Origin: Cymbomonas tetramitiformis | Lineage: Eukaryota > Chlorophyta > Pyramimonadophyceae > Pyramimonadales > Pyramimonadaceae | Direction: 5' to 3' | DNA length: 64,000 bases | NCBI GenBank assembly: GCA_001247695.2 | Contig: LGRX02009818.1 | Coordinates: forward strand, 48,276 to 112,275 | Notes under the pieces: model-generated | Seen by the model: only the letters and a program-made list of their open reading frames with translations | What the model was told of the DNA's origin: nothing | Database searches by the model: none | Shown: piece by piece, positions 36,951-61,200 of the stretch | Layout of the letters: each line of letters opens with the position of its first letter | How positions within the stretch are numbered: the first letter of the stretch is position 1 | Program-made: the position numbers and the translations under genes

Positions 36951-38348
36951 CCCTCGGGGTGCTCTCATCACCGGTACCTGCGCAGTACCCTGAGAGTTTC
37001 CCTGAGGAGCTGGAGCTGATGGAACTGGATCTGGAGTTGCAACTGCTGCATTGATGCTGTGCTGACTCTTCAGTTCCTTGACCAAGGTGTTGATCGTGTT
37101 GATGAGTTTGCCAGATCCATCCTTAGCACCTTGATTCTTCTGTGGCTGTCTCTGATTCTGAAAAGGATTCTGAGCTGGTGGCTTACCCTTGATCTCCTTT
37201 CCATCATTGGTCCTGGTGGCAAAACAATCCTTCTCGATGTGACCAACACGACCACAACGATTGCAGGTCTTATCATTCTGTGATTTTCCTTTTCCTTTTC
37301 CTTTGCCCTTGCCTTTACCACCTTTTCCTTTGTTCCGATTCTGATTGGAGTTCTGACTGCCACTCTGATTACAATTCCGATTTCTGTTGGTTCTGTCATA
37401 TGGCTTCTGGCCACGTCCTCTGTCCTTATCCTTCTTGGATGGACCTCCAGATGACTGCTCCTTCTGACCCCGATAGTGAAGGTTTTCTGATTGCTTTGAG
37501 TGAATGACGTAGTTCAAATCAAGCAATATCTGTGTGGTTTCTTGCCACGACATATTGTTCCTCTGCTCTTCTGTCAGGTATCTGAGCTGGAACTGTCTGC
37601 GGAGATCAGAATCCATACTGGTGACGAATCTGTCCTTTATTAGCACATCATTTAAATCAACTGCTGCTAAAGAAGCCAGTGATGTAAATGTGCGCAAATA
37701 ATCAGCAAAGGTTTGGGTTCCTTGAGTCAGTGCCATTAGGTGTTTCTTGGCTACTGATCTCTTATGAGGATTACCAAATTGTCTGAGGAACGTCTGTCTG
37801 ACCATCTCATAAGTGGCATATGGTTGTTGTGCCAAGACTTGGAAATAGTGTCTGTCGTTATTCTGTATGAGAGTAAGAAACACTGTGATCAAATCCTTAT
37901 CATTGACACCTGGATAAGTGAACTGGAAATATCTGTCCACTGTATCCAACCAGACCTCTGCGTCTTGTCCTGATTTGAATTCCCTAGGTGGTGTCATTTT
38001 CACCTTGGGGACCAAACTGGGTGGAGCTGGTGGAGCTGGTGCGGGTACTGAATCTGCATCTGGGTCTACAAAGACCATCGGAGGACTGTCTTCTGTATAC
38101 TCTGCTTCTGGTGCCTGAGGCTCATTGGCAGGATCCTTGTACCGGCTCATGTCTGGTTTCATGCGACTGACATTGTCATAATAGCCTATGTGGTCATATC
38201 TGGTTAGTGTATCGGCATAACCAGCAATCCACTTTGGAACCTTAAACCGACTGTATGCATCGTATGAACCAAGTATGTCGAAAAACCAAGTCGAATGATC
38301 TGGGTTGATATCAGGAACCTCATGCTCTTCCTCTTCGATAGTAACCAT
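36948..38348 (-). CDS. gag: Gag of chromovirus copy B, 466 aa
   Basis: The ATG at 38348 lies just after a T-tract and AG. The N-terminal half has WFFDILGSYDAYSRF; the centre has MTPPREFKSGQDAEVWLDTVDR in a capsid fold-like context. A long Lys/Gly/Asn-rich nucleic-acid-binding stretch (about 300-355) is followed by one CCHC knuckle CNRCGRVGHIEKDC (about 360-373). The tail is Gln/Pro-rich. The stop at 36948 overlaps the upstream open frame of pol, which is in the -1 frame, so Pol is presumably made by frameshifting or from a spliced or second message. Confidence 0.85.
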   Translation of the reverse strand: MVTIEEEEHEVPDINPDHSTWFFDILGSYDAYSRFKVPKWIAGYADTLTRYDHIGYYDNVSRMKPDMSRYKDPANEPQAPEAEYTEDSPPMVFVDPDADSVPAPAPPAPPSLVPKVKMTPPREFKSGQDAEVWLDTVDRYFQFTYPGVNDKDLITVFLTLIQNNDRHYFQVLAQQPYATYEMVRQTFLRQFGNPHKRSVAKKHLMALTQGTQTFADYLRTFTSLASLAAVDLNDVLIKDRFVTSMDSDLRRQFQLRYLTEEQRNNMSWQETTQILLDLNYVIHSKQSENLHYRGQKEQSSGGPSKKDKDRGRGQKPYDRTNRNRNCNQSGSQNSNQNRNKGKGGKGKGKGKGKGKSQNDKTCNRCGRVGHIEKDCFATRTNDGKEIKGKPPAQNPFQNQRQPQKNQGAKDGSGKLINTINTLVKELKSQHSINAAVATPDPVPSAPAPQGNSQGTAQVPVMRAPRG

Positions 38349-44548: not shown

Positions 44549-44807
44549 TGCTGAAATCTGTATAGGCAGCCCTGACCGGGAGTCCCGGTGCAGGCCCCTA
44601 TGACAGATTCCTAGGTAGCCAACACTGGACCGTGACTGATCCGTAAGCATGTGCTGTGACACACCGAGTGTCACAGGTAGCTAGACTCGAGACCGTTCCG
44701 ACTCCGTGACCGTTCCGGGTATATCTAGCTTAGGGTTCATTTCTTATACGAGTTTATCTATATTGGTTCACTGATTGTCTGATATCTTGAACCGGGATAT
44801 TCCAGTA
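44549..44807 (+). repeat. LTR of the gag-only family (plus orientation)
   Basis: TGCTGAAATC..TTCCAGTA, 259 bp; clearly related to the 255-bp LTRs of 25049-28805 but diverged. It is the 3' LTR of the 42280 copy. Confidence 0.8.
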
Positions 44808-45187
44808 AGAAGTCACTTTGAATTATTGTTGCACGCAGTTCGCCAAGACTTCACTCGTCGTCGGGGTCGGTCGGGGCGCAGGCGTCTATGGCGCCGCTCG
44901 GCGCGAGCTGAGAGGCCTCGCGCCGTCGGCCCGTCGCGCCACGCCGTTGGCGCGACGCGTGCAAATTTTGCCTCGCGCCACAAGCCGGCGTCGCGCGTGA
45001 CCCCATTTTTCTGCGCCACCAATACTGATATACTACGGGTATATCTCCGATATATCACGGAGACGGTGAAATAAATATATATGAAGGTAGTGATATACTT
45101 CGTATATATTTATTTGTCTATTGAAATCACCGCGGAAGCTGGACATTGTCACAGCAGGCTAGAGCACACACTCGAACTAAGATGAGA
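44808..45187. other. 380-bp GC-rich spacer between two inverted LTRs
   Basis: 44850-45010 is very rich in GCGC/CGCG-type motifs. A perfect 13-bp hairpin of AT sequence (AAATAAATATATA, 45069-45081 with 45103-45115) follows. No gene seen. Confidence 0.4.
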
Positions 45188-45448
45188 TACTGGAATATCC
45201 CGGTTCAAGATATCAGACAGTCAGTGAACCAATATATATAAACTCTTATAAGAAATAAACCCTAAGCTAGATATACCCGGAACGGTCACGGAGTCGGAAC
45301 GGTCTCGGTCCTAGCTACCTGTGACACCTTGATGTGTCACAGCACGGGCTTACGGATCAGTCGCAGGTCCAGTGTTGGCTACCTAGGAATCTGTCATAGG
45401 GGCCTGCACCGGGACTCCCGGTCAGGGCTGCCTATACAGATTTCAGCA
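45188..45448 (-). repeat. Solo LTR of the gag-only family (minus orientation)
   Basis: 261 bp, an inverted and close relative of 44549-44807 (shared subfamily differences such as TTTCAGCA and CACGGAGTCGG). There is no internal sequence on either side and no matching 5-mers outside. Confidence 0.7.
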
Positions 45449-46500
45449 TGTCACAAACCACGGCTTATCGTGTACCTCAGCCGGGTTGTGACACTTGCTG
45501 TAGCAGTCTCTGTGACGAACATATGACGCGCGCTGTACGGTACGCGTGAGGAGTTATGACAGTGAAGAGATACGGAAAGATAAGCGGGTGTTACACTTGT
45601 TCAGAGATAGTGAGAATAAGTAGGGCGGCGTGGAAGGGTGAGGCAGACGCTCATTTTTTGTTTTGCCTTCGTAACAGTGATTTCCGAAAATAGCCAGGAC
45701 TCGCTTAGACCGCGAAAACAGCAGTGTTATGAGATAATTTATGAGATACAGCATTCTTCTGCTTGTAAAGATATACGTTTGTGGAACTTGCTCTTGTGCG
45801 ATAGTGTCAGAACTGTAATTAACAGTCTTTTTCAAAACAAAAATGTGCCATATTACAGACATGTCGTCTGTAATTCTGAGAGTGCAACAGCAGTCCTGAA
45901 GAACGAAACTTCTGAATGGTGATGCCAGGGACGGATTTATCCGTACTGGTAAGCCTTGGAAGAGGTTGAGGGAAACAGACTGTTGTGGCACTCGAAGTTC
46001 ACCAGTCTTGCAAAGTACAGCGACAGCGATCAGAGAGGAACCCGTTGCCAATTGTCCACTATGGCTACAGCGTTGAGAATTATATGCTGGGCTATTTCGG
46101 GGAGTGACATCCTGCTGGAGCGAAGCACCAGACGGTAAAGCCAGGGACGGATTCATTCGTACTGGTACGCCTGAAGGCGTAGAGCGAAACAGGGCTGTCA
46201 GTGAACACCATCACGACAGCGTTCTTTGCGACCACTTGACCCATGCTGGCATTCTTCCGAGTTACTGTACTGACCAGGCACACTGAGGGCTGAGGCAACC
46301 TTGCTGGACATCTAAGAAGAACCAGTGCAAGACAGGGTCAAGTCACAGACGAAACCGTGCTCACCATTCATGAACGAGATTATCCTGGCAGTGATTGCTA
46401 CTTAGAGCAAAGCACTGAAAGGTGAAGCCAGGGACGGATTTATCCGTACTGGTAAGCTTGGAAGTGTGGAGTGAAAAGAGCCTTCACACCAGCATCTCCT
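45449..46500 (+). promoter_or_regulatory. 5' region (possible LTR start and leader) of the methyltransferase retrotransposon
   Basis: Begins TGTCACAAACC and folds back on GGGTTGTGACAC within 46 bases, as many gypsy LTR starts do (TGTCACA). A second LTR copy is not available because the element is cut at its 3' end, so the LTR limit cannot be fixed. No coding frame is supported before about 46500. Three copies of a structured repeat lie at 45905-46470. Confidence 0.4.
45905..46470 (+). repeat. Three dispersed copies of a hairpin-forming leader motif
   Basis: Copies at about 45905-45975, 46115-46190 and 46405-46475 share GCCAGGGACGGATTTATCCG followed by TACTGGTA and GAG(N)GAAA. CCAG/CTGG encloses ACGGAT/ATCCGT to form a stem. 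In copy 2 a base change gives a G:U pair, so the stem is kept. The role is unknown: packaging, dimerisation or translation control are possible. Confidence 0.6.
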
Positions 46501-46504
46501 CTCC

Positions 46505-47237
46505 ACCGGGAAGATAGCAACGGAATCCAGTACTGACCGTCAGAAGCAACAAAGGGCAGAGAGGCGTGCCCAGAGAGCGATACGGGTGAGCCAGCACTTC
46601 ACAGAGCTGGAAGAAGAGGAAGGGGCTGCCAGAGGTCAGCCCGAGGTCCAAGCATGCACCAGTGCAACCTCAGGTCCAAGCCCAAGCACCAGTGCAACCT
46701 CAGGTCCAAGCCCAAGAGCCGTTGGTGATATTCGAGGAGGAAATGGAGTACACTGACTCCGCGCGCATCAACCTTGGTACGCTGCCCATCTACACGGGCA
46801 CCAAGGAGGAAGACCGTCCCAAGTTTCTGAGGGAGTTCGCCGACATGTGCGAGAATTTTGTGCGGCAGCACAACGCCAACGTCAGAAGGAGGCTCAGGTC
46901 CGGGGCTGGCACGCTCACCGATGCGCAGATCAAGACCCTGAGAGAGACACCTCCTGACTTTGAGTATCTGTGGGATATCATCCCTGCATGTCTGGCTGGC
47001 GAGAATTCGCAAACTCTCAGCTGGTGGCGTGAGAATTATGAGAAAGGGGGTGTAGTGGCCTCCAACATGGACCGAGTCCTCAAAGACACTAGTGAACATG
47101 GCCCACTCGAGGGTACCATCCCGTGTGCTAGGCCCCCTTTTAATGAAATGAACACTGGTACCACGTGGGTGATTGCGAGGCCAGTGACGAACCAAGACGC
47201 CCAAGCAAGGGGAGGTTTCCAACGACTATCTGACTGA
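46505..47237 (+). pseudogene. gag: Gag N-terminal region of the methyltransferase retrotransposon (frameshifted)
   Basis: A Gln/Arg-rich start (TDRQKQQRAERRAQRA... HFTELEEEEGAARGQPEVQA) shifts frame near 46650 into PVQPQVQAQAPVQPQ, a 30-nt tandem repeat. Then comes MEYTDSARINLGTLPIYTG, FLREFADMCENFVRQ and DFEYLWDIIPACLAGE up to 47237. At about 47200 the same protein continues in the frame of the next ORF (TPKQGEVSNDYLTDG). The frame from 46662 has no ATG start, so the true initiator must lie upstream. Capsid role by position. Confidence 0.55.
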
Positions 47238-47256
47238 TGGAACTTCGCTGAAAGGC

Positions 47257-50200
47257 TTGACGGGACATGATGGCACCCGTGACACGCAGTACTTCTACGC
47301 GCTCAGGGGTTTTATCGCTGCCCTTGACAAGAAGTTTATGATGAAGGGAACGCAAGAAAAAGTGGATCTGTTGACACAGAAGCCGCAGGAGGTGGGGCAG
47401 GATGGGCTAACATACATGAAGATGTGTCAACGCAGGGAGATGCAGCTCAACACTGGGAAGGTGCTGAGCGACGAGGAGCTGCGCACCTTCATCGAGGACT
47501 GCGTAGAAAACCTGCGCATCAAGGTCTTCCAGACACGGGTGAAGGAGCAACTGAGGGCACAGTTCCCGCCACCCAATCGGGTGACCTGGAAGGACCTGGA
47601 GTCCATCATCGAGGTTCAGGACAAGCTCAAGGGCGACGCGGAGTCTTGGATCCTCACCTTCCTTCAGGAGATCACCAGGCGGTGTGGCTGCCAGTACTCT
47701 ACCTGGGAGGCTCGTCAACATTGCCTCGACCTCAAGGCGATAAAGAACTCGATCAAGAAGATTGAGTCCGCTGGGGAAGGGCAGCCAGGCGAGCTAGAGA
47801 GCAGCAAGAAGGCGGAGACACCGCCTTCCAAGAAGATGAAGAAGGAGGTGAACGTTGCCGAAAGAACCAAGAAGACCTCCTACAACAAGACGCCGCCGCC
47901 AGCGGAGGGCACTCGTACGAACGACAAGCCCAAGTGCTTACGCTGCTTTGGAGGGGGCTGGCATGAGTCCGATCCTGAGCAGTGCAGGAGCGGCTACAAA
48001 CACGTCAAGATGCCTGCCGGGTTCCACGAGAGCAGACTTGGTTCCAGCAAGTGGTGGGACGCGGAGAATGTCGCCCTGCGCATGTACAACTTGAAGAACC
48101 GCTTCAAGAGCTCCGACTGGGGCATTCTGGTGACGGACTGGCAGCAGCTGTCCAACGACGAGAAAGACAAGTACCGAGCCAAGCAGACACCAGAGGACAA
48201 GCAGAAGGGCGCCACTGGCAACCCTGAAGCGTTGAAGGCTGAGTACCAGGGCATGGTGGCTGCCAGGAAGACTGCCAGTCGTGCGGGCAGTGTGAAATCG
48301 CAGGTACTGTCCGAGGTTGAGGGCTCCGACGAGGAGCCAGTCGCAGCGCGCGTCGCGGAAAGGGAGACACACATCGCCGATGCACACGTGCACCACCGTG
48401 GCAGCGCAGGAGCAGGAGCGCCATCTGGCTCTCCAACCGACTTACTCTCAGCAATGGCCGAGGAGATGGGTGAAGAGGCACTCTCGAGCGCACTCGACAC
48501 CTTGGGTTTGGGGGCACTCCCCGAGACACTGTGCAAGGGTGCAGAGTCCGAGCTCACAGCAGCCCCAGCGGTAGCCCTGGGCAGCACTCAACGCATGAGG
48601 GGCTTCCCAGTGAAGACACCTGAAGAGTACGAGGCCGACGCACAGGTGCCCATGGCGCCTGCGGCGGACGAGATGCAGAGGAAGGTACAGCTCATGGCTT
48701 CCGTGATCAAGAGTCTAGGAGCGGCTTTCCGTAAGCTAGCTGCTGGACTCGTGGCAGAGGGTCGTATAACAGCTCCCAGGGGTGTGGAAACCCTGGTGGA
48801 GCTAGCTGAGACCAATCAGCTCCCCATGCCAACAGCCTTAGCAGCAGACTGTCAGGGCATCGGCAGAGACCATGATGACGACAGCGACGAGGATGACGAT
48901 TGCCCGGGCATGGAGTCGGGTGACGACAGCGACGAGGATGACGATTGCCTAGGCATGGAGTCGGGCGACGACAGCGACGAAGAGGAGATTCCTCTGGACG
49001 AGATGCCGGAGGACACGGTGGAGCAGCCCAGGAAGGGGAGAACCACGGTGCGCGTAACTGCTGCAGCGGCCACTGTCCAGGAGAGCTTCGGGGTGAGGGA
49101 CTTCAGCGAGAGGGGCGAGCTACACGCAGGGACCATGGAGGCCAAAGCATACGAGCTGTTGAAGAAGAAGATGCTCAGTGGCCTTACGGAAGAGCAGCTC
49201 ACCGCCATGGCGCAGGTCCAGCCTGTGTGCAAGCTTCTGAACGAGTCTTTGGCACAAGGGATGGCTCTGGTGGCCTCTGGGGGCCTGCTCATGTTGTACA
49301 AAGCGCTACTTCTGGACACTGGAGCCAATTGCAACATCATTCCCATCAGAACAGTCAACAGGCTTGGCGTGACCATCTTCGATGCGGAGACGGGGGCCAG
49401 AGTGACCAGATGTGACGGCAGCCCTGCAGAATTCACCAAGTACTGCTACGTGGATGTGGTCCTCGCCGCGGGCACACCATACATGACTCTGCATCGGCTC
49501 CATGCCTTTGTCACATACACCAACGACACTACGTGGGATTTCTTGGTGGGCACGGGACCCCTGAAGAACGCACTCAAGCTGACCATCGACCTCTACCGAG
49601 GCATCGCCACCTCTGAGGCCGCGGTGTCACTGGGCATGAGGGAGAAGGTCACGCTGCCGTTGATCGAGTTGACGCCGCCCGTTGATGCGAGGAGCAAGCG
49701 GAACGAAGACCCCAGGGTGTGCCTGGCGACTGAGATCTTCGACGACGGTGCTACGCTAGCGCGCACTCTTGCCCCCGCCTTTGAAGGCTGCGCTCCACCA
49801 CCACGTGAGGCGGTGTTTCCAGACACAAGGGGAGAGGACCGTCTGGCCCTCTCAGGAGAAAGGTGTGCACCTGCACCTTGTGCATTCTCACGAAACCACC
49901 CCGAGCTGGTGGACCTCCTGGCATCATGGCTAGAGGAGATGAGACTGAGAAGGTTCAACTCGGAGGAGAGGGAGAGGCTCGATGCGCGTTGCCAGTCCAT
50001 GGTGGAGGCGGGCTTCTTGAAACCCAGCTCACTGATGCGAGTCGAACTCACTGGGCGGGTCAACTTGCACGCCGAGAGCTCAACGTTCGAACCACCGGTG
50101 CCCGGTACGTCCATAACGGGCCAGATGTTGGGCCTGCTACAAGCGACATCACGCAGCCAACGGGAAGCCAACGTGGCGACCAGAAGCGAGTGGTCCAGTG

Positions 50201-50958
50201 TTGAAGAGCCAGCTGAGACGGAGTCCGTCATGCCAGCCAGCCTGGCCACGACTCAGACAGACCCTCGCTATCCAGACCTTACGCAGGAGCAAGCGGCCGA
50301 GAGCGAAGCTGACTACAAGCTGGCCAGTGTACAGCCATGGGTGGGCATGGCAGTGAACCCATGGGATTATCAAGACAAGGAGAGCAGCTGGTCTCAGCAG
50401 CGCCTGTACATCGACCGCACGGGCTATGCTCGCTTGTGCACGCTCTGCGAAGAGGGCAATGGAAGTGGTGTGGACGCAGGATTTGTGCAGGTCAAGTTCT
50501 CGCGTTGTGGAGAATGGAAGACCATCTTGGAGACGGAGTTACTGTGGCCCGACTTCACGTTGGTGGATCAGAAGGTTGACAAGGAGACGAAGATACCCTC
50601 AGAAGCCTGGACCACGAGGGCGAGTCACAGGAAGGACAACGACCAGGTCCCGCTTCCTGACTGTGGTGCCCATTGGGAAGCTGGGAGGTACACAATGGCG
50701 AGTGTTCAGGAGGCCCTCAACACCCACCAGATTTACCCAGGGGTCGTGACGGGCAAGCTCATGTGGGACAAGGTGGCACGCCAGTTCTGCGTGCTCAGCG
50801 AGCACACTCGCGCCCAGTGGGATCTCATGGAGCGCATGGTACGTCACACCATGGAGGGTGCCGCCAACGTGTGCCCCATGGGGAAGGTGACTGGCGAGTT
50901 CCAGCTGCCCTTTTACTACGAGAAGGATCAGATCAGCGTTGGCAATACCAGCATCTGA
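47257..50958 (+). CDS. gag-pro: Gag-protease polyprotein segment, ORF of 1233 codons
   Basis: The frame is open upstream of 47257 (the codon there is TTG, so this is not a true start). Order: capsid-like helices (about 1-160), a Lys-rich NLS-like stretch (KKMKKEVN), a CCHC-like finger C227-x2-C230-x5-H236-x6-C243, a segment WQQLSNDEKDKYRAKQ that resembles an HMG-box helix, three acidic repeats of GDDSDEDDD type (about 540-580, 60-nt tandem repeats), then the retropepsin motif LLLDTGANCNIIP (Asp687). A further 540 residues follow with no domain I know. It ends at TGA 50956-50958, after which the protein appears to continue one frame back (-1). Confidence 0.75.
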   Translation: MTGHDGTRDTQYFYALRGFIAALDKKFMMKGTQEKVDLLTQKPQEVGQDGLTYMKMCQRREMQLNTGKVLSDEELRTFIEDCVENLRIKVFQTRVKEQLRAQFPPPNRVTWKDLESIIEVQDKLKGDAESWILTFLQEITRRCGCQYSTWEARQHCLDLKAIKNSIKKIESAGEGQPGELESSKKAETPPSKKMKKEVNVAERTKKTSYNKTPPPAEGTRTNDKPKCLRCFGGGWHESDPEQCRSGYKHVKMPAGFHESRLGSSKWWDAENVALRMYNLKNRFKSSDWGILVTDWQQLSNDEKDKYRAKQTPEDKQKGATGNPEALKAEYQGMVAARKTASRAGSVKSQVLSEVEGSDEEPVAARVAERETHIADAHVHHRGSAGAGAPSGSPTDLLSAMAEEMGEEALSSALDTLGLGALPETLCKGAESELTAAPAVALGSTQRMRGFPVKTPEEYEADAQVPMAPAADEMQRKVQLMASVIKSLGAAFRKLAAGLVAEGRITAPRGVETLVELAETNQLPMPTALAADCQGIGRDHDDDSDEDDDCPGMESGDDSDEDDDCLGMESGDDSDEEEIPLDEMPEDTVEQPRKGRTTVRVTAAAATVQESFGVRDFSERGELHAGTMEAKAYELLKKKMLSGLTEEQLTAMAQVQPVCKLLNESLAQGMALVASGGLLMLYKALLLDTGANCNIIPIRTVNRLGVTIFDAETGARVTRCDGSPAEFTKYCYVDVVLAAGTPYMTLHRLHAFVTYTNDTTWDFLVGTGPLKNALKLTIDLYRGIATSEAAVSLGMREKVTLPLIELTPPVDARSKRNEDPRVCLATEIFDDGATLARTLAPAFEGCAPPPREAVFPDTRGEDRLALSGERCAPAPCAFSRNHPELVDLLASWLEEMRLRRFNSEERERLDARCQSMVEAGFLKPSSLMRVELTGRVNLHAESSTFEPPVPGTSITGQMLGLLQATSRSQREANVATRSEWSSVEEPAETESVMPASLATTQTDPRYPDLTQEQAAESEADYKLASVQPWVGMAVNPWDYQDKESSWSQQRLYIDRTGYARLCTLCEEGNGSGVDAGFVQVKFSRCGEWKTILETELLWPDFTLVDQKVDKETKIPSEAWTTRASHRKDNDQVPLPDCGAHWEAGRYTMASVQEALNTHQIYPGVVTGKLMWDKVARQFCVLSEHTRAQWDLMERMVRHTMEGAANVCPMGKVTGEFQLPFYYEKDQISVGNTSI

Positions 50959-52190
50959 AGTACGTGCAGCGAGTGGACATCACTGACCTTCGAGCTCGTC
51001 TGAAGGTGAAGTATGATAAGGAGGTGGCTGGTGTGGAGGACCTGGGCGTAAAGGTTGTCCCGCAGCTCACGCTGTCAGACGCAGCTGACAAGGTGGGGAA
51101 GTTCTACCCAGTGACCGATGGGGAAGGAGGCGATGGTGAGGTGTTCAGCACGAACGCCGCCGCCGTGGAGTACCTACACTTGGGGGACAACGCCAGAGTA
51201 ATGCTTGGTGCATGCAAGACGGAGGAACAAGCACGTGACGCGCTGAACACCTATGGGGCCAGAAGGAACCCTCCGGTACGCACACACAAGACTCTCAGGA
51301 CACAGAAGATGGTCAGAGGAGATGAGGCAGGACCATCTGGCTCCACGCCGCCGCCATCCTCAGCTACGCTTCGCCTGAAGCATCAAACCTGGCCCAATGG
51401 AGCCTTCGACCCTGCGAGGCTAGAATATCACACATCAGTGTTCCAGGGCACTTACGAGCCAGAGTCACCCACCCGCAGCGAGAACACCGCTGGGGAAGCC
51501 GACTGGCTGGATCTGGAGGGGATCTCAGAGTTCGCGGCGCTGCACGGACAGACAGTCTTCCTCATCCAATACCGTTGTTTCAAGGGCAAGATCGAGTTCC
51601 AGCTTGGGAAGCCCTATGCACAGCGAGGGAAGGGAGTGCACACGCAGCGACTCAGCAACAAGACACTGCACAGGTACTCCTCCTCCGCAGGGGTGGGGCA
51701 ACGGGGAGAGTTTTTGCCTCTGGGCGGGCAGTCGAAAGGCTGCACGGGAGGACTCCTGGGCACCATACAGAAGCACATGGAGCACCTTGTCCATCGCACA
51801 CAACTCGTGGAGATAGCCAGGAGCCATTTGAACGATGGTCCACAGCAAGGCACTCTACGTGTGTTCAAGACCCGAGCCAACGCCCAGTCCAAGGCCGTTT
51901 ACTACCTCTTTGAGGATCATCGCTATTACCGTGAGCGGGGACCCGACGAGATGGTGTTCACCTTGGAGTACCTTTCCTCTGGGACACGTAAGTTCGACTG
52001 CTGTAGCTGGGAGACCTGGAACAAGGTGGCCGTGATGCATCGGGAGCCATTGTCAGCGTTCACATCCCTGGTGGGCCCTACGTTGCTGGCTGAAGCACAT
52101 CGAGCAGAGGTACACGAGCACCTGCGCAACGACTTCATGAGGTGCTTGGACCCAATCGTGGGGATGATGATTCCCATGCAGGAAGTGAGG
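50940..52190 (+). CDS. Central segment of the polyprotein, function unknown
   Basis: The -1 frame relative to the previous ORF; meaningful sequence begins about QHLKYVQRVDITDLRARL (50950) and runs to about MMIPMQE (52187), where the coding pattern moves to the next frame. It contains VFKTRANAQSKAVYYLFED and KFDCCSWETWNKVAVMHR. I recognise no domain. Its position between protease and the TM/RT part is where no standard Ty3 domain is expected. Confidence 0.5.
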
Positions 52191-53113
52191 AGGAAGATGG
52201 CAGCGTCTCGGGACACTCGCCCGACCTCGCGGCTGCTGCGGGTGCGAGCACCCACACGTGTCGCACAAGAACGCCGTCGCCGCAGACGGAGAGTTCTGAT
52301 GAGGACGTGGAGGTCATCAGTGAGAGGTTTGTTGGATTGGCTGCCAATTTGGCGCGAGGGCGCGCCGAGGTCGCAGCGAACAACGTCACCATGGCGGCTC
52401 TCTCAGAGTCGATAAGGGCGCGCCAGGAGATCATCAGGTCATCAGAGGAGATCATCAGAGAATATGAAGAGCGACCTCGCACTGCTCGCGCGACTGCGAG
52501 GATGAGCACGCTTGGGTCAGACTGCCCTGGGCTTGATGGTCGTGGTGGTGCACGAGCTGCGCCTACGCGGGAGCACTACTCTGGCCAAGCTCTCAGCGGT
52601 ACACGGTCCAGGGGCTTAGAGTGCAACATGGCACAGCGGCCCGAGCACCAGTCGGTCCACGACATTTTAAGGTCCCCGACGCATTCAGTCTGCACGCAGC
52701 GGACTGAAGCTGTGCCTCCGGCTGCACCGGAGCAGGAGGCCACTTCGCTCGTGCCATCGCCAACCAGGGGCTCCTCAGCGCCCGGCAGCCCAGAGCAATC
52801 CAGTGGCCGCGTTGTGCGCACCGACACCCGACGTGAGGGCCATCTTGCGACGAGCCCGCAGAGTCTGACCGCGAGGCCCGTGCAGCAGCGCTCGCCACGA
52901 GCTGGCCAGCGCAGGAGGAGATCTCCGAGCCCCAGGAGCGAGGCCCAGCGTCGTGGCGCAGCTCGCAGTCGACATGCAGGCAGCAGCGTGCCGCGTTCTT
53001 CCTATGAGCGCCTAAGTCATGATGAACGTTGGGAGGAGAGAAGAAGGGAGAGCGCACTGGGGCCTTTTCAAGGGGGCACCGGGTCGGCTGCAGCCCGGCG
53101 CGCCCGTCACTGA
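52142..53113 (+). CDS. Low-complexity, Arg/Ser-rich linker segment
   Basis: Again -1 relative to the previous frame. An acidic start (GSEEEDGSVSG), a helical part (ISERFVGLAANLARGRAEV), then a Pro/Ser/Thr-rich region and an Arg-Ser-rich tail (QRRRRSPSPRSEAQRRG). It is possibly a flexible RNA-binding linker. It overlaps the next frame from 53029 and stops at 53113. Confidence 0.45.
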   Translation: MLGPNRGDDDSHAGSEEEDGSVSGHSPDLAAAAGASTHTCRTRTPSPQTESSDEDVEVISERFVGLAANLARGRAEVAANNVTMAALSESIRARQEIIRSSEEIIREYEERPRTARATARMSTLGSDCPGLDGRGGARAAPTREHYSGQALSGTRSRGLECNMAQRPEHQSVHDILRSPTHSVCTQRTEAVPPAAPEQEATSLVPSPTRGSSAPGSPEQSSGRVVRTDTRREGHLATSPQSLTARPVQQRSPRAGQRRRRSPSPRSEAQRRGAARSRHAGSSVPRSSYERLSHDERWEERRRESALGPFQGGTGSAAARRARH

Positions 53114-56100
53114 GAAGCAGCCCCGGCGCACAGCCGGGCACACAGCCCGCCGATGGACGGTGGGCGAAGCGCACTCAGGTGTGCTTCCTGCTCGTGGGGG
53201 TGTTCGTGCGCTTGCAGTGGCCGCAGCTGACTCACTTTGCGGTAATGGTAGCGTGGATGGCCATGGAGATATCCAGGTGCCTTGGTGAGGTCGTCGCCGT
53301 CTGGGCGTGCCGCACTGGGGTGCCCCGCAGAGTCATGGCACGCACATTGTGGGCCATACGCACCGCGCCGCTCGAGCCATGGGCGCATCATCGGGCGCAT
53401 CTGCATGTGCTGTGGGAGCTGGCTAGGCACCTGCTGCTGCTGGTCGTGGGGGCCTTTAAGGTAACCGGGCTCCAACATGTCCAACGCGGGCTGTGGTACG
53501 TGCCATTGCTACGGTTTGGGCTCGCCATGCTCGCCATGCACTTCACGCGCATGGTCGGTACTCTGGGGTGCATCTTGGTGCTTGGCGCCCACGTTGTGAA
53601 CCATGGGTTGCCAGGCTCCTGCTTGGTTTGCGATAGGGGCGAGTTCACTACGCTTGGGGCTCGAATGAGCCGTGCGCTGGCGATCGCCCAGCGAATCTCG
53701 GCAGCGGGTCCGGCCACGCTGGCAGCTGTCCCTCGACGCATGCAGAAGCCGCGTTTTGCCGCCCGGCTGCAGCGCCTGCGGTTCACGGCCGCTTGCTACC
53801 AGGTGGCGCACTGCCTCTATGTGGCATCAGTATTGACGCTGGTGGTCTACGTGTCTGCGGGAGGAGGCCTGGGCCGTATGCAAGGGGGGTGGAGGATGCT
53901 GACTTGCATACTGACCCTTCACCCTCCGGTCAAACCAGTGGGGATCAGCAGAATTTTGAAACTTTTGCTGTTACTCGTGGTGGCTGCTTGGGTGGCCGCT
54001 GTGCCCCCTGGGGAGTTTCAGGGCGTGCTGGCGGTGGGATCGTGCTCGGGCTCGCCAACCAGATCTTTCAGGACCGCCTGGGAGGACCAGAGGTCTTCGC
54101 GCCAATGGGACACTGGATGGGAGGCTATGGTGGCGGAGCGAGACGAGGTGCTTCCGCACACGGTGCTGGACACCTTACAGCCAGGGGGCACAACCAGGGT
54201 CACCAAGGACGAGGCCGCGTGGCTGGATACCGAGCTCAATGCCACCTTTGGAGGACATCCCGAGTTCACTGAGGAGAACTGGGAGGAGATGCGCAACGTG
54301 GTGAGGAGGTGCAGCTATTGCTTCGCCAACAAGCCGCAGGACATCAAAGGCTACCATGGAGGTGCGGCACATGCGACCTTCGCCCTCCCGTTCAAGGACG
54401 AGACTAAGGTAGCCTACCAGCGACCGAGGAAATACAGCCCAGGGGAGCAGGAGATCATCGACCTGCACTGCAAGGAGCTGCTGGAATATGGCTTCATCGA
54501 GCCGGCTTCACAGCACTGCAGACACGCCAGCAACGTGGTGGTCGCGGGGAAAAAGGATCACGACACTGGACAGTGGACTTCGACGAGATTCTGCGTCGAC
54601 CTCCGGAACACGAACCGGTTGTCGCTGAAGGATAACACGCTACCACATCGTCCAGAAGAGCTCTACCAGCGCGTGGCCAAGGCCAAGTTCAAGACTACTC
54701 TGGACGCGACCAAGGCGTTCCACCAGATTCCCATGACTACTGAGGAGGACAGGGACAAGACAGCGTTCTGGTGGGGCAACCAGCTTTATCGTTACACATC
54801 CATGCCGTTTGGAGCAGCTGGAGCGACCGCAGCCTTCATCAGGATCATGGACTACGAGTTGCGTCACCTGCAGCATTGCACGGTGGCGTACGTCGATGAC
54901 GTGTGCATATACTCAGACACCGCTGAGCAGCACATCAAGGATGTGGAAGCCGTGCTTCGCACCTTGGGGGATGCAGGGATACGCCTGCACTCGGGCAAGT
55001 CGACCTTCGGGTCAGCCACTGTGGACTTCTTGGGCTACCGCATCGGCTACAACACTATTGGTGCGCAGGACATCAAGTGCAAAGCCATCCAAGAGTTGCC
55101 CAAGCCCGAGGACAAGACTGGAGTACGCTCCATCCTTGGACTCATGAACTACTACAAAGGTTTGGTGGGGGAGCCCATGGGACCCAACTACTCAGAGATG
55201 GCACGACCACTGAACGACTTGCTCAGAAAGGAGGTGTTGGATGTCAGCAAGGAAGCTTGGGGGAAGGAGCAGGACCAGGCATTGCAGGCATTGAAGGACG
55301 CCCTATGTTCGGGGAGATGTTTGAAGCCCATCGATTACAGCAGGCCCATTTTTCTCTACACGGACTGGAGTAACCATGGCATTGGCGCAGTGCTGGGTCA
55401 GAAGGATGAGAACGGCGTAGAGCACATCTGCGTGGTGATCAGTCGCTCACTGTCGAAGATCGAGAGACAGTACGCGAGCTTCCAGGGTGAGATGCTGGCA
55501 GTGGTGTGGGCAATCCGCACGTTACGACAGTACCTGCACGGGATCCACTTCACGCTGATTACCGACAATTCGCCGCTCACAACACTCATGGAGAAGGGGG
55601 ACCTGCAGGGTCAACACCTACGCTGGGCCATCAGCCTCCAGGAGTTTGAGTTCACGGTCCAGTACCGACCAGGTCCGAAGAATGAGAACGCGGATGTGCC
55701 ATCCAGGTACCCGCTGACCAGCACCGCAGACGAGACCGGTGCCCGCTTGGACCGTGAAGGGGACCAAGCCAGGGAAGCGGGGCATGCCGAGAGGCTAACG
55801 CGCTGCTTCACAGATACCATCTGCTTGGAAGTAACCAGGGAGCCACCACTTGGTCTAGAAGTGAGCCCAGAGGCACAGATGGCCAACTACTGCGAGAACA
55901 TGGTCAGGGAGCAGCTGGGGACCAACGCAGTCCATCGACTGTTTGACGTGCACTGCCAAGAAGAGTTGGAGTGCAACAAGGGGGTCATGTTTGACACTGA
56001 CCACCCGGAGGTGGCCAGGTGCTCGGGCAGGTTGACTCGAGTCGCCTGGGATGCCCTCAGCCAGGTCCGGCCAATCAGGGGTATGCATTCTGGAGGCTCC

Positions 56101-59100
56101 CCAGCGATATACGGCGACGAGACCATGGAGGGTGGCAAGCTCAAAGTGCCAAAGAAGATCGACACGAGAGTGATTGACAAGAGCTTCTTTCGGGAGGCCA
56201 GAGAAGAAGGCGTGGTCTGCTATGAGCCGTGTGGGGGCCTATGTGCTGGACTAGAGATGCTCTTGCGCTGTGGAGTTAAGGTCAACAAGTACCTCTACCA
56301 GGACATCTCGGAGTCCAGCCAGACGGTAGCCAGGGCCAGGTGCATGGCGCTCAGCCGTCATCATCCTGACTTGTTTCGTGCCGAGGCAGCCCATTTGGAA
56401 CAGCTGCCCAGCAACATCGAAGACACCAGTCTCATTGACCTTGTACATGCAGGAGCATTGAGTGGAGAACAATGGGTCATGGTGTGTGGATATCCATGCC
56501 AGGACCTGTCACCAGCTGGCAAGCTGGCTGGTTTGGAGGGCAGGCACAGCAGACTGTTCTACCAGGCAGTGCGAGTCCTCTCTACGCTGCAGCAGCTGCA
56601 GCCCCAGCGACCGCCAGCATATGTGCTAGTGAACGTTTCTCCGCTGTCACACAGGGAGAACTCGAAGATCAGGAAGGACGTGTTTCCCATCATCAATAGC
56701 GTGGTGGGCCAGCCAGTATCCTTCGACGCGGCGCGCGCGGGATCATACGCGCATCGCCTGCGAGCATATTGGAGCAATCTGTTTCAAAATCAGCAGTTCA
56801 ATCTGGTGATGGAGGGGGTGGACAGACCACCAGCCAGATACGTGCGCGATATTTTGCAGCGAGGCTGGAAGCCACGCAGGGTTGTCACTGGAGACAGAAA
56901 GCCTCACTACACCGCTAACGTTGTGGGGGAGCCTATGAGAGTATTGCCAACCATCTTGGCGACACAAAACTCTCGCGCCTTTCGCGCACCACGCGCAGGC
57001 ACGGTGGTAAGGAAAGAAGATGATGATGAAGTGGGGGAGACCAAAGAGGTTAACCTGGACGAGAAGGCAGTTGCCATGGGGTACAACGCGAGTGAGCTGC
57101 GCATGGCGCATGGCATGAAGGACGAGGAATTGGCAGGAGTGCTTGGCCTTGCTATGGATCGGAGAGCAATGGAGCTATTGTATGCGATTGCCGAGGTCAG
57201 CACGACCAAACTGCCGAAGAGCGAGGAGAGCGAGGAGGAGGAGCATGGCACGCTAGCTGCCATCCCTATCGCGAAGTCCACCAAGGTGGCTACCACCTCC
57301 GAGGACACAGCTGAGCCGGTGCGAGCACAACTAGCAGAGTGGGTCACCAGTTCCAGCGACTACACTCAGCAAGTCGCGCGACGCCTTAGCCATCAGGACT
57401 GGGAAGAACGACTGCAACACATGTGCAGCCAGGGGCAGAAAGGTACACAGGGGCTAGGCACCGCCGACGCCGTCCCACGTCGCAGACAGTGGAAGCTTGC
57501 CTCCATGAAGCTCGCGGGCTATGAGGCGCGCCATCGGCAGGCCTTTTCAAGACCTGGGGGCAAGCCAGCAGAGACAAGCTCAGCTCCAGAATGGGCACCA
57601 GTAGCGAAGGAGAAAGAGATGAGGCTGCCTAGGCTGCCCGACACTACGAGAATGGTTGCCATGCTAGCCAGTGTAACCAACCAGGAGTCACTTCGAGAGA
57701 AGTACCCCGACATACACGAGGACGAGCTATGCCTCGCGTGGATCAAGACCGGAGGAAGAGTGGAGGTGCCCAAGGAGGAGTACCACAGAGTGAGGAAGAG
57801 AGCAGCACGTCACCGCTGGGACGAGCTCATGGGCGAGTTGTACATGGTCACCGTCAGTGGTAAGGAGCTGCTGGTGCCCAAGCCCTGTGACAGGATTCAG
57901 CTGGTGCGTGAGCACCATGAGAGGACTGGCCATTGGGGCATCAGGCGGACACTGAACTTGTTGTGGCAACGCCATTACCGGGCAGGCATGAAACAGGATG
58001 TGCGAGCGGTGGTCACTCAGTGTCAGACTTGCCAGAGGGTGAAGACGCACTATGCACGGGAGGAGGCGATGCTCACGCCGCTGGAAATCAAGTCCTTCAT
58101 GTACCGCTGGTCCCTGGATTTAGCTTGGCCCACGAAGCGCATCACGAAGGCTAGGAACCAACGCGTCTTGGTCATGATTGAGCACTATACGCGGTTCGTC
58201 GTGTGCGTTCCAATCCCTGACAAGGAGGCCGCCACCATCGCCAGCGCGTTTCGCAATCACGTTTTATCCGTGTTTGGGGCGCCCGCAGAATGCCTTGTGG
58301 ACGGGGGCACAGAGTTTGAGGGCGAGTTCTCTGCCCTATGCAAGCAGTGTCTCATTGACCGGAGAGTGACCTCACCGAGTTCCCCAGAGAGCAATGGCTT
58401 GACTGAACGGGTGGTACGCACCCTCAAGTTTTGCTTCAAGAAGATGGCCCTCGACAAGGGCCTGGACTTCGAGTGGGACGAGATGCTCTGGTCACTCGTA
58501 CTCAGTTACAACGCAGCTAAACAGCAGTCGACTGGAGTGGCGCCATTCACCTTGCTGTTCGCTCAGGAAGCCACGGTGCCACCGGATCTTCGTGCTCGAC
58601 CCGAGTTGGACTTTGGGAAGCAGGAGGAGAAGACACTGGCTGAGGACTTGTTACAGCGAGCAGCCATCGTGAAGAAGCTCATGGTACATGCAGGGTGCAA
58701 CCTAGAGATCGCCCAGCACCGCGACACCTTGCGATATGAGCACAGGAGGAGTGGCAGCTACGAGCCGAAGCCGCACCAGTTCAAGGCAGGCAATTTCGTG
58801 TACATACGACAGCAACCGCGCTCTGGCATGGAGGTGGCCACCAAGCCAGCCATCCTAAAGATAGTCAAGGTGCAAAGAGATGGGGTGGTAGTGTTGGAGG
58901 ACAGCACGAAGTTGCGGGAGAAGAGCACAGTGCAGAACATCGCACCATGTCACCTGCAGGTGAAAGATCAATACGACTGCAGTGCAGCCATCCCCAGCAA
59001 GCACCTCGCGTGTGAGGCGTGCATGCGGACAGATGGGGAGGCAGCCATGTTGCTGTGTGACACCTGTAACCGTGGCTATCACACGTGGTGTCTGAATCCA

Positions 59101-59640
59101 GCGCTGGATGGAGTACCTGAAGGAGATTGGCAATGTCCCAAGTGCTTGGGTGGGAACGTGGTGGCAGCTGCCGCCGAGGTGAGTACGTCGATCGTAGAGA
59201 AGATGGCTGCCATGGAGCTGCAGCTGAGAGAGAAGTTGGGCTCAGATGTGGTATTGTTGCCTGCAGACGTGGGTCCACATCGTGCAGTGAAGCCGGGGCG
59301 TGAAGACCCATGGCAGGCGCTCACATCGCGACAGATGCTCAGGACAGAAGGGAGCATGGGGGATCTCCCTGACAGAGTGGCCTGGGGAAATCAGGAGGAG
59401 CTCGGCAGAGTAATTACAGACGTGATGCCAGGATTCTGGCATGTAGGCCATCGCACCATCCTGAGCAGAAAGTGTGCAGAACAGCACACTCGCGCGAGAA
59501 GCCTCCGCAAGGCGTCCACGGTGCAGGCCATGAGCCCAGAGGAAGTACAGAAGAGAGGGGATGTTAAGGCTCTCTGCATCCTCCGCTGGTACTGTGACGG
59601 GGAATTCTGCAATCCCTGTGGCATCACCAGCCACTCGTAG
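53029..59640 (+). CDS. pol: Pol polyprotein with RT, RNase H, cytosine-5 DNA methyltransferase, integrase and PHD finger
   Basis: 2203 codons; the first codon is TTG, so translation probably enters by fusion with the upstream frame. About five hydrophobic segments (52-80, 126-146, 162-190, 259-280, 309-329) precede RT (about 450-650; YVDD 621-624) and RNase H (Asp779, Glu821, Asp846). Methyltransferase about 1062-1395: YEPCGGLCAGLEMLL (motif I), GYPCQDLSPAG with Cys1157 (motif IV), VNVS at 1201-1203 where ENV is normal (motif VI), AHRLRAYWSNL (motif VIII). Integrase: HHERTGHWG...CQTC (1629-1668), then Asp1697, Asp1758, Glu1793 (D-35-E spacing). PHD finger 1995-2039 (C4HC3). The last 20 or so codons are antisense of an inserted RT fragment, so the natural end is lost. 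Confidence 0.85.
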   Translation: MGGEKKGERTGAFSRGHRVGCSPARPSLRSSPGAQPGTQPADGRWAKRTQVCFLLVGVFVRLQWPQLTHFAVMVAWMAMEISRCLGEVVAVWACRTGVPRRVMARTLWAIRTAPLEPWAHHRAHLHVLWELARHLLLLVVGAFKVTGLQHVQRGLWYVPLLRFGLAMLAMHFTRMVGTLGCILVLGAHVVNHGLPGSCLVCDRGEFTTLGARMSRALAIAQRISAAGPATLAAVPRRMQKPRFAARLQRLRFTAACYQVAHCLYVASVLTLVVYVSAGGGLGRMQGGWRMLTCILTLHPPVKPVGISRILKLLLLLVVAAWVAAVPPGEFQGVLAVGSCSGSPTRSFRTAWEDQRSSRQWDTGWEAMVAERDEVLPHTVLDTLQPGGTTRVTKDEAAWLDTELNATFGGHPEFTEENWEEMRNVVRRCSYCFANKPQDIKGYHGGAAHATFALPFKDETKVAYQRPRKYSPGEQEIIDLHCKELLEYGFIEPASQHCRHASNVVVAGKKDHDTGQWTSTRFCVDLRNTNRLSLKDNTLPHRPEELYQRVAKAKFKTTLDATKAFHQIPMTTEEDRDKTAFWWGNQLYRYTSMPFGAAGATAAFIRIMDYELRHLQHCTVAYVDDVCIYSDTAEQHIKDVEAVLRTLGDAGIRLHSGKSTFGSATVDFLGYRIGYNTIGAQDIKCKAIQELPKPEDKTGVRSILGLMNYYKGLVGEPMGPNYSEMARPLNDLLRKEVLDVSKEAWGKEQDQALQALKDALCSGRCLKPIDYSRPIFLYTDWSNHGIGAVLGQKDENGVEHICVVISRSLSKIERQYASFQGEMLAVVWAIRTLRQYLHGIHFTLITDNSPLTTLMEKGDLQGQHLRWAISLQEFEFTVQYRPGPKNENADVPSRYPLTSTADETGARLDREGDQAREAGHAERLTRCFTDTICLEVTREPPLGLEVSPEAQMANYCENMVREQLGTNAVHRLFDVHCQEELECNKGVMFDTDHPEVARCSGRLTRVAWDALSQVRPIRGMHSGGSPAIYGDETMEGGKLKVPKKIDTRVIDKSFFREAREEGVVCYEPCGGLCAGLEMLLRCGVKVNKYLYQDISESSQTVARARCMALSRHHPDLFRAEAAHLEQLPSNIEDTSLIDLVHAGALSGEQWVMVCGYPCQDLSPAGKLAGLEGRHSRLFYQAVRVLSTLQQLQPQRPPAYVLVNVSPLSHRENSKIRKDVFPIINSVVGQPVSFDAARAGSYAHRLRAYWSNLFQNQQFNLVMEGVDRPPARYVRDILQRGWKPRRVVTGDRKPHYTANVVGEPMRVLPTILATQNSRAFRAPRAGTVVRKEDDDEVGETKEVNLDEKAVAMGYNASELRMAHGMKDEELAGVLGLAMDRRAMELLYAIAEVSTTKLPKSEESEEEEHGTLAAIPIAKSTKVATTSEDTAEPVRAQLAEWVTSSSDYTQQVARRLSHQDWEERLQHMCSQGQKGTQGLGTADAVPRRRQWKLASMKLAGYEARHRQAFSRPGGKPAETSSAPEWAPVAKEKEMRLPRLPDTTRMVAMLASVTNQESLREKYPDIHEDELCLAWIKTGGRVEVPKEEYHRVRKRAARHRWDELMGELYMVTVSGKELLVPKPCDRIQLVREHHERTGHWGIRRTLNLLWQRHYRAGMKQDVRAVVTQCQTCQRVKTHYAREEAMLTPLEIKSFMYRWSLDLAWPTKRITKARNQRVLVMIEHYTRFVVCVPIPDKEAATIASAFRNHVLSVFGAPAECLVDGGTEFEGEFSALCKQCLIDRRVTSPSSPESNGLTERVVRTLKFCFKKMALDKGLDFEWDEMLWSLVLSYNAAKQQSTGVAPFTLLFAQEATVPPDLRARPELDFGKQEEKTLAEDLLQRAAIVKKLMVHAGCNLEIAQHRDTLRYEHRRSGSYEPKPHQFKAGNFVYIRQQPRSGMEVATKPAILKIVKVQRDGVVVLEDSTKLREKSTVQNIAPCHLQVKDQYDCSAAIPSKHLACEACMRTDGEAAMLLCDTCNRGYHTWCLNPALDGVPEGDWQCPKCLGGNVVAAAAEVSTSIVEKMAAMELQLREKLGSDVVLLPADVGPHRAVKPGREDPWQALTSRQMLRTEGSMGDLPDRVAWGNQEELGRVITDVMPGFWHVGHRTILSRKCAEQHTRARSLRKASTVQAMSPEEVQKRGDVKALCILRWYCDGEFCNPCGITSHS

Positions 59641-60239
59641 GAGCCCATCTGGGTGGTGAATGCTGTCTTCTCCACGTCTTCCTCAGCCATGGGGACTTGC
59701 CAGAATCCATCCACGGCGTCGAAGGAGGAGAAGTGGGTGGCACCCTGCATCTCGTCGAACATCAACTGAATGTCCGGCAGCGGGTACCGATCTCTCACTG
59801 TTTGAGAGTTCAGCTGGCGGTAGTCCACCACCAGGCGCAGCGTGTTAGGCTGGCCCGGTTTGGGTACCATGCGACATGGTGCCGCGTAAGGACTGGATGA
59901 GGGTCTGATGTAGCCCTTTTCCACCAGCTGCTCGATGCGTTCCCGCAGTTGCCGAAGCTCTTCCACAGACATGCGGTAGGGACGGCGAAATGGAGGTCCT
60001 CCCTCCTTGTCTGGCTTAAGGGGGACTCTGGCCTCATCCTCCATCGACCGCCGCAGTTTGGACATCATGGGGAGGGCGTCACGCAGCTCCTCGGAGAACT
60101 CCTCGAAGAGTGCCCGGAACTTCTCCTTCCAGCGGGGTGCCACCTTGGCGTCCCTCGTGTCCTGTGGGATGTCTTTGGCGGTGCCCCCAGTATCCGGGGG
60201 TTCCAGCTTCACCTGGGTGCTAACGACGATATCGCAAAA
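59570..60239 (-). pseudogene. pol: Fragment of a Ty3/gypsy reverse transcriptase, antisense
   Basis: Minus-strand frame (open 60248-59391) with RRPYRMSVEELRQLRERI, GYIRPSSSPYAAPCRMVPK, LRLVVDYRQLNSQTV, DRYPLPDI, FSSFDAVDGFWQVPM and MPQGLQNSPSQYQRRMQRA: the fingers/palm part of a Ty3 RT up to just before YxDD. Downstream of RAL the frame is antisense of the methyltransferase element. It belongs to a different family from copies A and B (VDYRQLN against CDYRALN). Confidence 0.8.
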
Positions 60240-60261
60240 ATGAGACACGCGGGTGTCTCAT
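60240..60261. other. Perfect 9-bp hairpin
   Basis: ATGAGACAC, a 4-base loop, then GTGTCTCAT. It lies at the upstream end of the antisense RT fragment, just before the satellite. Confidence 0.7.
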
Positions 60262-60280: not shown

Positions 60281-60924
60281 AAGTTATGATAACGAGGTTT
60301 TTTTTATATGACTAGATAGCATTTGGAGAGTAGATAATGACACGTTATTTCAAAATTTGAAATTTTAGGGTATAGCCCGAAATTTGGGGTTTCCAGGCGA
60401 TTTTTCGCCCCGTTTCGGGCGGTGCTCAGGTGTCAATCGGCGGAAGTTATGATAACGAGGTTTTTTTTATATGACTAGATAGCATTTGGAGAGTAGATAA
60501 TGATACGTTATTTCAAAATTTGAAATTTTAGGGTATAGCCCGAAATTTGGGGTTTCCAGGCGATTTTTCGCCCCGTTTCGGGCGGTGCTCAGGTGTCAAT
60601 CGGCGGAAGTTATGATAACGAGGTTTTTTTTATATGACTAGATAGCATTTGGAGAGTAGATAATGATACGTTATTTCAAAATTTGAAATTTTAGGGTATA
60701 GCCCGAAATTTGGGGTTTCCAGGCGATTTTTCGCCCCGTTTCGGGCGGTGCTCAGGTGTCAATCGGCGGAAGTTATGATAACGAGGTTTTTTTATATGAC
60801 TAGATAGCATTTGGAGAGTAGATAATGACACGTTATTCAAAAATTTGAAATTTTAGAGTATAGCCCGAAATTTGGGGTTTCCAGGCGATTTGTCACCGTG
60901 ATTCGGGTGGTGCTCAAGCGCCAT
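60281..60924 (+). repeat. 163-bp satellite, four direct copies
   Basis: Copies start at 60281, 60444, 60607 and 60770, each AAGTTATGATAACGAGG. The first three are almost identical; the fourth decays after about 120 bases. Each unit has CGAAATTTGGGG and GCCCCGTTTCGGGC, the latter able to form a small hairpin. Confidence 0.9.
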
Positions 60925-61200
60925 TTGTTAAAAATGGTGGTAATGACGATGTTTTCATATTGGATACGTCAAAGTCATTCCAAACAAACTGAGTCTGAAG
61001 AAACTTTTGTTCATATCTTACATACACCCCGAGAATGGGAGGCTTTAATGTTAAAAGCGGTGGCACCAACCTTAAATCTAGGGGGTGTAGGTCTGCACGA
61101 GACTGTAACTGTGTGCGTAGCACAAAAAAACAACAAAAACCGACAAAAGGCACGAAGAATGCTACCAGATAAGACGTTGGTGCTATGAAAATATACAGTC
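60925..61200. other. Unassigned open frame
   Basis: A plus-strand frame from ATG 60931 to 61188 (MVVMTMFSYWIRQSHSKQ...) has no family I know. It may be chance or an exon end. It lies downstream of the 61343-61729 gene, which is on the other strand. Confidence 0.2.

Follow-up and report, generated by a model that had tools for sequence, protein, structure and literature searches.

A Ty3/gypsy-type retrotransposon of Cymbomonas tetramitiformis whose Pol combines a DNMT3-class methyltransferase domain, a PHD finger and a second methyltransferase-like domain

The element and its remnant in the window

The DNA analysed here, a stretch of 64,000 nucleotides referred to as the window (positions 48,276 to 112,275 of contig LGRX02009818.1 from the green alga Cymbomonas tetramitiformis), contains the remnant of a retrotransposon at 45449-59564 (+). 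A single open frame of 2203 codons in the raw DNA (53029-59640, +) matches, in this order, the Pfam families RVT_1 (1.7e-21), RT_RNaseH (3e-30), DNA_methylase (2e-7), Integrase_H2C2 (6e-14), rve (4.3e-7) and PHD (3.6e-10), with the rve score (30.6 bits) lying slightly below the curated cut-off (32.6). These matches, together with an alignment of relatives, define a reverse transcriptase (RT) core with a YVDD motif (54592..55047, +), an RNase H domain (55345..55710, +), a cytosine-5 DNA methyltransferase domain of the DNMT3 class (C5; 56185..57192, +), the H2C2 zinc-binding domain (57889..58047, +) and the DDE core (58105..58386, +) of an integrase, and a C4HC3-type PHD finger (59011..59145, +). 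They are followed by the first ~50 codons of a C-terminal methyltransferase-like domain, here termed the A domain (59413..59564, +), whose remainder is lost in the window copy. An RT-RNase H module ahead of a DDE integrase (H2C2 plus rve) is the hallmark of Ty3/gypsy Pol proteins, and it is virtually certain that the element is a Ty3/gypsy-type long terminal repeat (LTR) retrotransposon with a Pol of the order RT-RNase H-C5(DNMT3)-integrase-PHD-A. A preliminary description, made from the letters of the sequence, had already pointed to the 2203-codon frame and its YVDD, PCQDL, AHRLRAYW and C4HC3 motifs, all of which we recovered, and our hidden Markov model search of the frame returned RVT_1, RNase H, DNA_methylase, rve and PHD in the order it had claimed. 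It had overlooked the A domain, the gag-side sequence upstream, the 5' terminal repeat, the split-repeat structure, the signature of selection and the decay of this copy.

The span given in that description, 53029..59569, holds at its end, since homology to the element stops between 59564 (DNA comparison) and 59574 (protein comparison). It does not hold at its start, because the TTG at 53029 is merely the start picked by the ORF caller and the remnant begins at 45449. Over its entire extent, the remnant is 88-89% identical in DNA to a genomic copy designated C1905. It opens with a 5' terminal repeat A (45449..45834, +), which starts with TGTCAC and shares 90% identity with the C1905 repeat, and continues with the remains of the gag-side open reading frame ORF1 (46590..53110, +), which is broken into four overlapping open stretches (those of at least 180 codons being listed) rather than forming the single 2168-codon frame seen in C1905 and the copy C1237. 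Within ORF1, a stretch at 49306..49422 (+) weakly resembles an aspartic protease (Asp_protease_2, E 0.022, under the cut-off). ORF2, encoding Pol (53026..59564, +), is open and truncated at its 3' end, where it abuts an unrelated antisense gypsy RT fragment (59565..60248, -; RVT_1, 2.1e-19) that marks where the element stops; given the limit of homology, the last ~25 codons of the 2203-codon frame belong to this fragment. The contig finishes where the window does, and the 3' part of the element beyond 59564 hence lies outside the available sequence.

Three sites that are nearly invariant in the alignment of relatives are altered in the window copy: RNase H has Asn where His stands in 97 of 97 other rows, the motif VI codon of C5 (56629..56631, +) encodes Val where 93 of 96 other rows have Glu, and the H2C2 domain contains Arg in place of a Trp found in 100 of 101. 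Because ORF1 is broken, the 3' end is lost and near-invariant residues have changed, we read this copy as a dead, decayed, 3'-truncated remnant that probably performs none of the functions proposed below. The protein nearest to its Pol is CYMTET_10903 (88% identity over the methyltransferase region, 97% over integrase-PHD). A passage of the 2015 Cymbomonas genome paper lists a cytosine DNA methyltransferase among very-high-coverage scaffolds (PMC5741210). Immediately upstream, positions 44549-45448 form a foldback. Its arms measure 140 nt (95%) and 83 nt (100% complementary), and the outer one reaches right up to the element start at 45449. A tandem array of four units of ~163 bp each (60281-60955) flanks the truncated 3' end.

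Intact copies, split repeats and selection

The genome yielded at least 124 matches, scoring having covered 123 of the 6837 first-look candidates; 97 of the matches are element-like, the other 27 matching other profile ranges. Eight of these 97 loci were fetched, and as they were picked for long open frames, counts out of eight describe a biased sample. All eight share the order RT, RNase H, C5, integrase, PHD, A, and three of them (C1237, C1905, C17782) carry all six domains in a single frame. Open frames of at least 2000 codons occur in seven of the 124 matches listed, four of them measuring 2398 codons; the family includes recent copies with open frames. ORF2 spans 2398 codons from stop to stop and overlaps the conserved upstream ORF1 (2168 codons in C1905 and C1237) by ~85 bases in a -1 relation. 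Upstream of the RT, the N-terminal part of Pol (window 53200-54150, +) contains a long stretch that is hydrophobic as judged by eye; this region evolves faster and is open in intact copies.

C1905 and C1237 are both 15,504 bp long, start with TGTCAC, end with GCGACA and are bounded by split repeats in the arrangement A(384)-coding-B(225)-A-B. The same arrangement is present in four of the five copies with flanks (C1905, C1237, C24244 and C20827, the last with an insertion in its first A repeat), while the contig of the fifth, C17782, is too short. The full A+B unit is found at the 3' end only; an ordinary two-LTR structure is absent from the five copies, A-coding-B-A-B being the only arrangement seen. 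The two A repeats are 98.7% identical in C1905, 99.5% in C24244 and 94.6% in C1237, and a 4-bp target-site duplication (TSD) flanks C1905 and C24244, with none at C1237 or C20827.

Selection was assessed by Nei-Gojobori counts for eight pairs of Cymbomonas copies. Between C1905 and C24244, the ratio of nonsynonymous to synonymous substitution rates (dN/dS) is 0.02 for RT, 0.02 for RNase H, 0.05 for C5, 0.06 for the integrase (156 codons), 0.06 for PHD (45 codons only) and 0.02 for A, compared with 0.32 for the Pol N-terminus. Across all eight pairs, it ranges from 0.05 to 0.10 for C5, from 0.06 to 0.13 for PHD and from 0.02 to 0.09 for A, and from 0.16 to 0.45 for the Pol N-terminus. C5, PHD and A are under purifying selection among the Cymbomonas copies.

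Captured domains, relatives and known systems

The C5 domain is nearest to DNMT3A/B/C (1e-16) and far from DNMT2 (7e-4 to 5e-3). The genomic copies and the majority of relatives possess motifs I, IV, VI and VIII and the DNMT3 fold, motif VI being changed in the window copy, and the motifs, including the catalytic ENV, are retained in all eight fetched copies although their Pol DNA diverges by up to ~15%. C5 is probably an active DNA methylation writer in intact copies. In a search for its donor, eight genomic C5 loci (L001-L008, of the at least 124 matches) were compared with the element profile; the top-scoring one is an intronless DNMT3-like gene of ~390 codons (1e-13), which we judged too distant to be the host source. 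L007 and L008, which carry similar ~390-codon intronless C5 methyltransferase genes, are the closest of the eight loci to the element C5 profile, and five more places (C8, C6, C2041, C154, C16883) are similar in length and profile range. Genes of this type are perhaps viral or derived from another mobile family.

The zinc ligands of the PHD finger are complete, and the best-matching solved PHDs by sequence in the Protein Data Bank (PDB) are those of KMT2C, KMT2D, CHD4, KDM5, WSTF, ATXR5 and BAZ2. A glycine occupies the usual place of the tryptophan in the cage for histone H3 trimethylated at lysine 4 (K4me3), which suggests that the finger may be a reader of unmodified H3K4.

The A domain, the third captured module, has a class I amino-methyltransferase fold nearest to N6-adenine enzymes and contains DPxxGxG and (N/D/S)PP(Y/F)-like motifs, which we regard as the signature of N6-adenine methyltransferases. 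Its top-ranked solved structure is the rRNA N6-methyladenine (m6A) enzyme METTL5, tied with M.TaqI, in the VIA ranking, a re-examination of the 1000 best Foldseek hits; Foldseek alone puts mixed class I methyltransferases first. The fold ranks closest to m6A enzymes, but motif IV is of the SPP(F) type, reminiscent of N4-methylcytosine (m4C) enzymes. Families matched by the A-domain sequence are mainly DNA methyltransferases; a PDB profile search with the domain returned nothing convincing (best E 0.54). Among 42 matches in short proteins (132-420 amino acids), many of which are Cymbomonas gene models or come from short metagenome contigs, no stand-alone relative outside the element lineage was recognised, as judged from the listing alone. 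Elsewhere in the window, a 159-codon ORF (12616-13095, -) scores against Dam, a family of N6-adenine methyltransferases (PF05869, 5.7e-9), and is perhaps a piece of another mobile element.

A search with C5 as the query returned 79 proteins, all of which carry C5 by way of retrieval (the window copy forming the 80th row): 42 have the order RT-RNase H-C5-integrase-PHD-A, 22 lack only A and the other 15 show parts of this order. An integrase-PHD query also retrieved 79 proteins. The 60 that the first search had not found comprise 15 complete proteins, five without A, seven with C5 ahead of RT, 15 plain RT-RNase H-integrase proteins, seven non-retroelement proteins (BAZ and others) in which PHD is the sole domain matched, eight partial or rearranged ones, and P0103, P0112 and P0119. 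Haematococcus, Pleodorina and Monoraphidium are among the hosts named, and metagenomic proteins display the same domain order. Relatives lacking the methyltransferase, which the preliminary description had raised as a possible objection, do exist, as P0103 (RT-RNase H-integrase-PHD), P0112 (RT-RNase H-integrase-PHD-A) and P0119 have PHD without C5 and the seven C5-first proteins place it differently; the fusion itself stands. P0119, a gypsy-like Pol of another kind, has its Dam domain ahead of RT and its PHD finger flanked by RNase H and integrase, and represents another pairing of a methyltransferase with a PHD finger. P0112 shows a weak Tudor-like match between PHD and A (residues 1636-1686; PF21743, 0.0022, below the cut-off), possibly a further reader.

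Phylogenies were computed with FastTree, without bootstrap, for RT-RNase H-integrase (midpoint-rooted; 101 of 141 candidates, that is 139 proteins and two rows of our own, with at least 80% of each domain required) and for C5 (97 C5 rows plus five genomic C5 genes), and contain 33 and 32 weak forks, respectively. In the former, all 86 rows that carry C5 or PHD cluster together (support 99) with P0119 outermost, and within this cluster lies a group of 77 rows (support 99) comprising the elements whose C5 follows RNase H and precedes the integrase, plus the C5-less P0112; the C5-first elements branch near the base of this group. Given this group order, the association with PHD seems to be no younger than the C5-in-middle arrangement, and because the PHD-bearing elements fall into one supported group, the C5-less and C5-first cases would reflect gain, loss and moving of modules. 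C5 and RT-RNase H-integrase distances agree modestly (Spearman 0.38 for the first 60 shared rows; as high in 0 of 500 permutations).

That gypsy elements can capture DNMT3 was shown by de Mendoza et al. (2018; PMC5890265), and the capture of DNMTs by retrotransposons was previously reported from a charophyte and dinoflagellates. The main text of that study describes KnitGypsy-Dnmt3 of Klebsormidium nitens, which likewise has a DNMT3-class domain in a gypsy Pol, DIRS-like repeats and purifying selection on the DNMT, whereas the Cymbomonas element has a second methyltransferase-like domain and a PHD finger in addition. Neither PHD nor chromodomain is a word used in this main text, the labels inside the figure not being readable. 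None of our hits is named as Klebsormidium, and the likeness to KnitGypsy-Dnmt3 is one of architecture. SymbioDIRS-Dnmt3 also has DNMT3 inside Pol, and de novo CG methylation in yeast was shown for the SymbioDIRS type; it and SymbioLINE-Dnmt similarly encode their DNMT within a retrotransposon, with a tyrosine recombinase or an endonuclease of the long interspersed nuclear element (LINE) kind, in contrast to the DDE integrase found here (main text of PMC5890265). DIRS-type elements with a Dam-like adenine methyltransferase, described in the same place, share with the Cymbomonas element the adenine-methyltransferase likeness and the A-coding-B-A-B split direct repeats that are a DIRS hallmark, but the Dam family is not among the A-domain matches and the integrase is again of the DDE type. 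No tyrosine recombinase match was obtained in four window frames or in P0004, P0012 and P0026, the intact ORF1 not having been scanned as a whole. Chromoviruses, gypsy elements whose integrase is followed by a chromodomain, have a histone-reading module at the position taken by PHD in the Cymbomonas element, whose window Pol gave no chromodomain match at E<=0.1. Gypsy elements of Phalaenopsis have also captured a nucleic acid modification enzyme, the m6A demethylase AlkB, which is an eraser encoded in a separate ORF, as opposed to writers fused into Pol (passages of PMC9289625). Passages of a survey of eukaryotic DNMTs report that some DNMT3 members reside within retrotransposons, and that chlorophytes have a lineage of their own, 'ChloroDNMT', in which PWWP is frequent; these passages describe no PHD-bearing retroelements, the word PHD occurring once elsewhere in the text (PMC12344493). 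Our literature search, which did not extend to most subscription papers or to any figure labels, found no report of PHD or a second methyltransferase with a gypsy DNMT3. As far as this search shows, the new features are the presence of both in the same Pol and their spread in chlorophyte-side algae.

Functional interpretation and alternatives

The likeliest use of the C5 and A domains would be self-marking: while the cDNA of the element is being made, or afterwards, the two domains, tethered through Pol, would methylate this cDNA or the site of the fresh insertion, adding 5-methylcytosine (5mC) and a second, amino-base mark. New copies might thereby resemble host DNA or adopt a chosen chromatin state. 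The PHD finger, placed after the integrase like the chromodomain of chromoviruses, could tether the pre-integration complex to H3 tails, probably those unmodified at K4. The marking of own cDNA or fresh insertions has been proposed for DNMT elements by de Mendoza et al. (main text of PMC5890265). Taken as a whole, this interpretation, from the identity of the element to self-marking and PHD tethering, is the one we favour with some confidence; as for its parts, the chances that methylation is aimed mainly at the element's own DNA appear evenly balanced, and a role of PHD in targeting integration is plausible, if a little less so.

Several observations weigh against this interpretation. Five of the eight fetched copies have one or more domains in a different frame; TSDs are present in just two of the four testable copies, and C1237 combines A repeats only 94.6% alike with the lack of a TSD. 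No XXXYYYZ slippery heptamer occurs in or near the ORF1-ORF2 overlap, and a programmed -1 slippage site was rejected on this ground. The Cymbomonas A domain alone matched no Pfam or PHROG family, and its motif I is lost in several relatives (P0017, P0021). C5 lacks the PCQ and ENV motifs in P0083 from Pleodorina starrii, a protein whose RT, RNase H, integrase, PHD and A domains are all matched. CpG depletion gives no distinctive trace of C5 activity, the observed-to-expected ratio being 0.72-0.77 in the element and 0.54 in a gypsy element of the same window without a C5 match. The latter, at 33088-38348 (-), is thus strongly depleted of CpG, and a single ORF encodes its RT, RNase H and integrase; another gypsy-type element or piece lies at 28816-31407 (+).

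The altered C5 of P0083 and the loss of A motif I in several relatives indicate that catalysis is not required in every lineage, and they lend some weight to the idea that C5, PHD and A are retained as non-catalytic DNA- or chromatin-binding parts, serving as a scaffold or in targeting. We consider this idea unlikely, as the C5 motifs persist in all fetched Cymbomonas copies despite the divergence of their Pol DNA, the motif VI Glu is conserved in nearly all rows, and dN/dS is low for both methyltransferase domains. Less probable still is that the methyltransferases modify RNA, such as the genomic RNA of the element. The tie of METTL5 for the top rank among A-domain structures points in this direction, as does the RNA methylation suggested for SymbioLINE-Dnmt (main text of PMC5890265), but C5 is far closer to DNMT3 enzymes than to DNMT2 and the A-domain sequence families act mainly on DNA.

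That the captured domains are unselected passengers could be argued from the loss of a catalytic residue in the window copy. We reject this notion as highly improbable, since dN/dS for C5, PHD and A is near that of RT and integrase and well below that of the Pol N-terminus, and the domains are conserved across relatives. The proposal of the preliminary description that one Pol joins a writer with a reader accordingly holds for a conserved lineage with both domains under purifying selection, though not for the window copy, which is decayed and has lost the motif VI Glu. There is next to no chance that the fusion arose in assembly or gene prediction, a concern the same description had raised with regard to separately encoded exons. 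We found nothing in favour of such an artefact, even if some gene models, P0004 among them, omit parts of the element, and it is refuted by the open frame in the raw DNA and by the identical order at eight other loci and in metagenomic proteins.

Selection maintains the writers and the reader in Cymbomonas, and relatives from other green algae have conserved them. In the most far-reaching reading, the algal lineage would constitute a self-contained epigenetic kit, with a Pol that makes cDNA, writes 5mC through its DNMT3-type domain and N6-methyladenine or N4-methylcytosine (6mA/4mC) through a phage-like domain, reads unmodified H3 and integrates, every new copy landing with a chromatin identity of its own; we hold this reading to be rather doubtful. 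Adenine methylation can mark active chromatin in green algae such as Chlamydomonas, and an element that carried writers of both kinds would represent a natural experiment in these organisms. As one Pol joins the writer to a histone reader and to a further methyltransferase-like domain, in a lineage with recent open-frame copies and every module under selection, the benefit that an element may draw from choosing or writing the chromatin state of its own insertions becomes testable.

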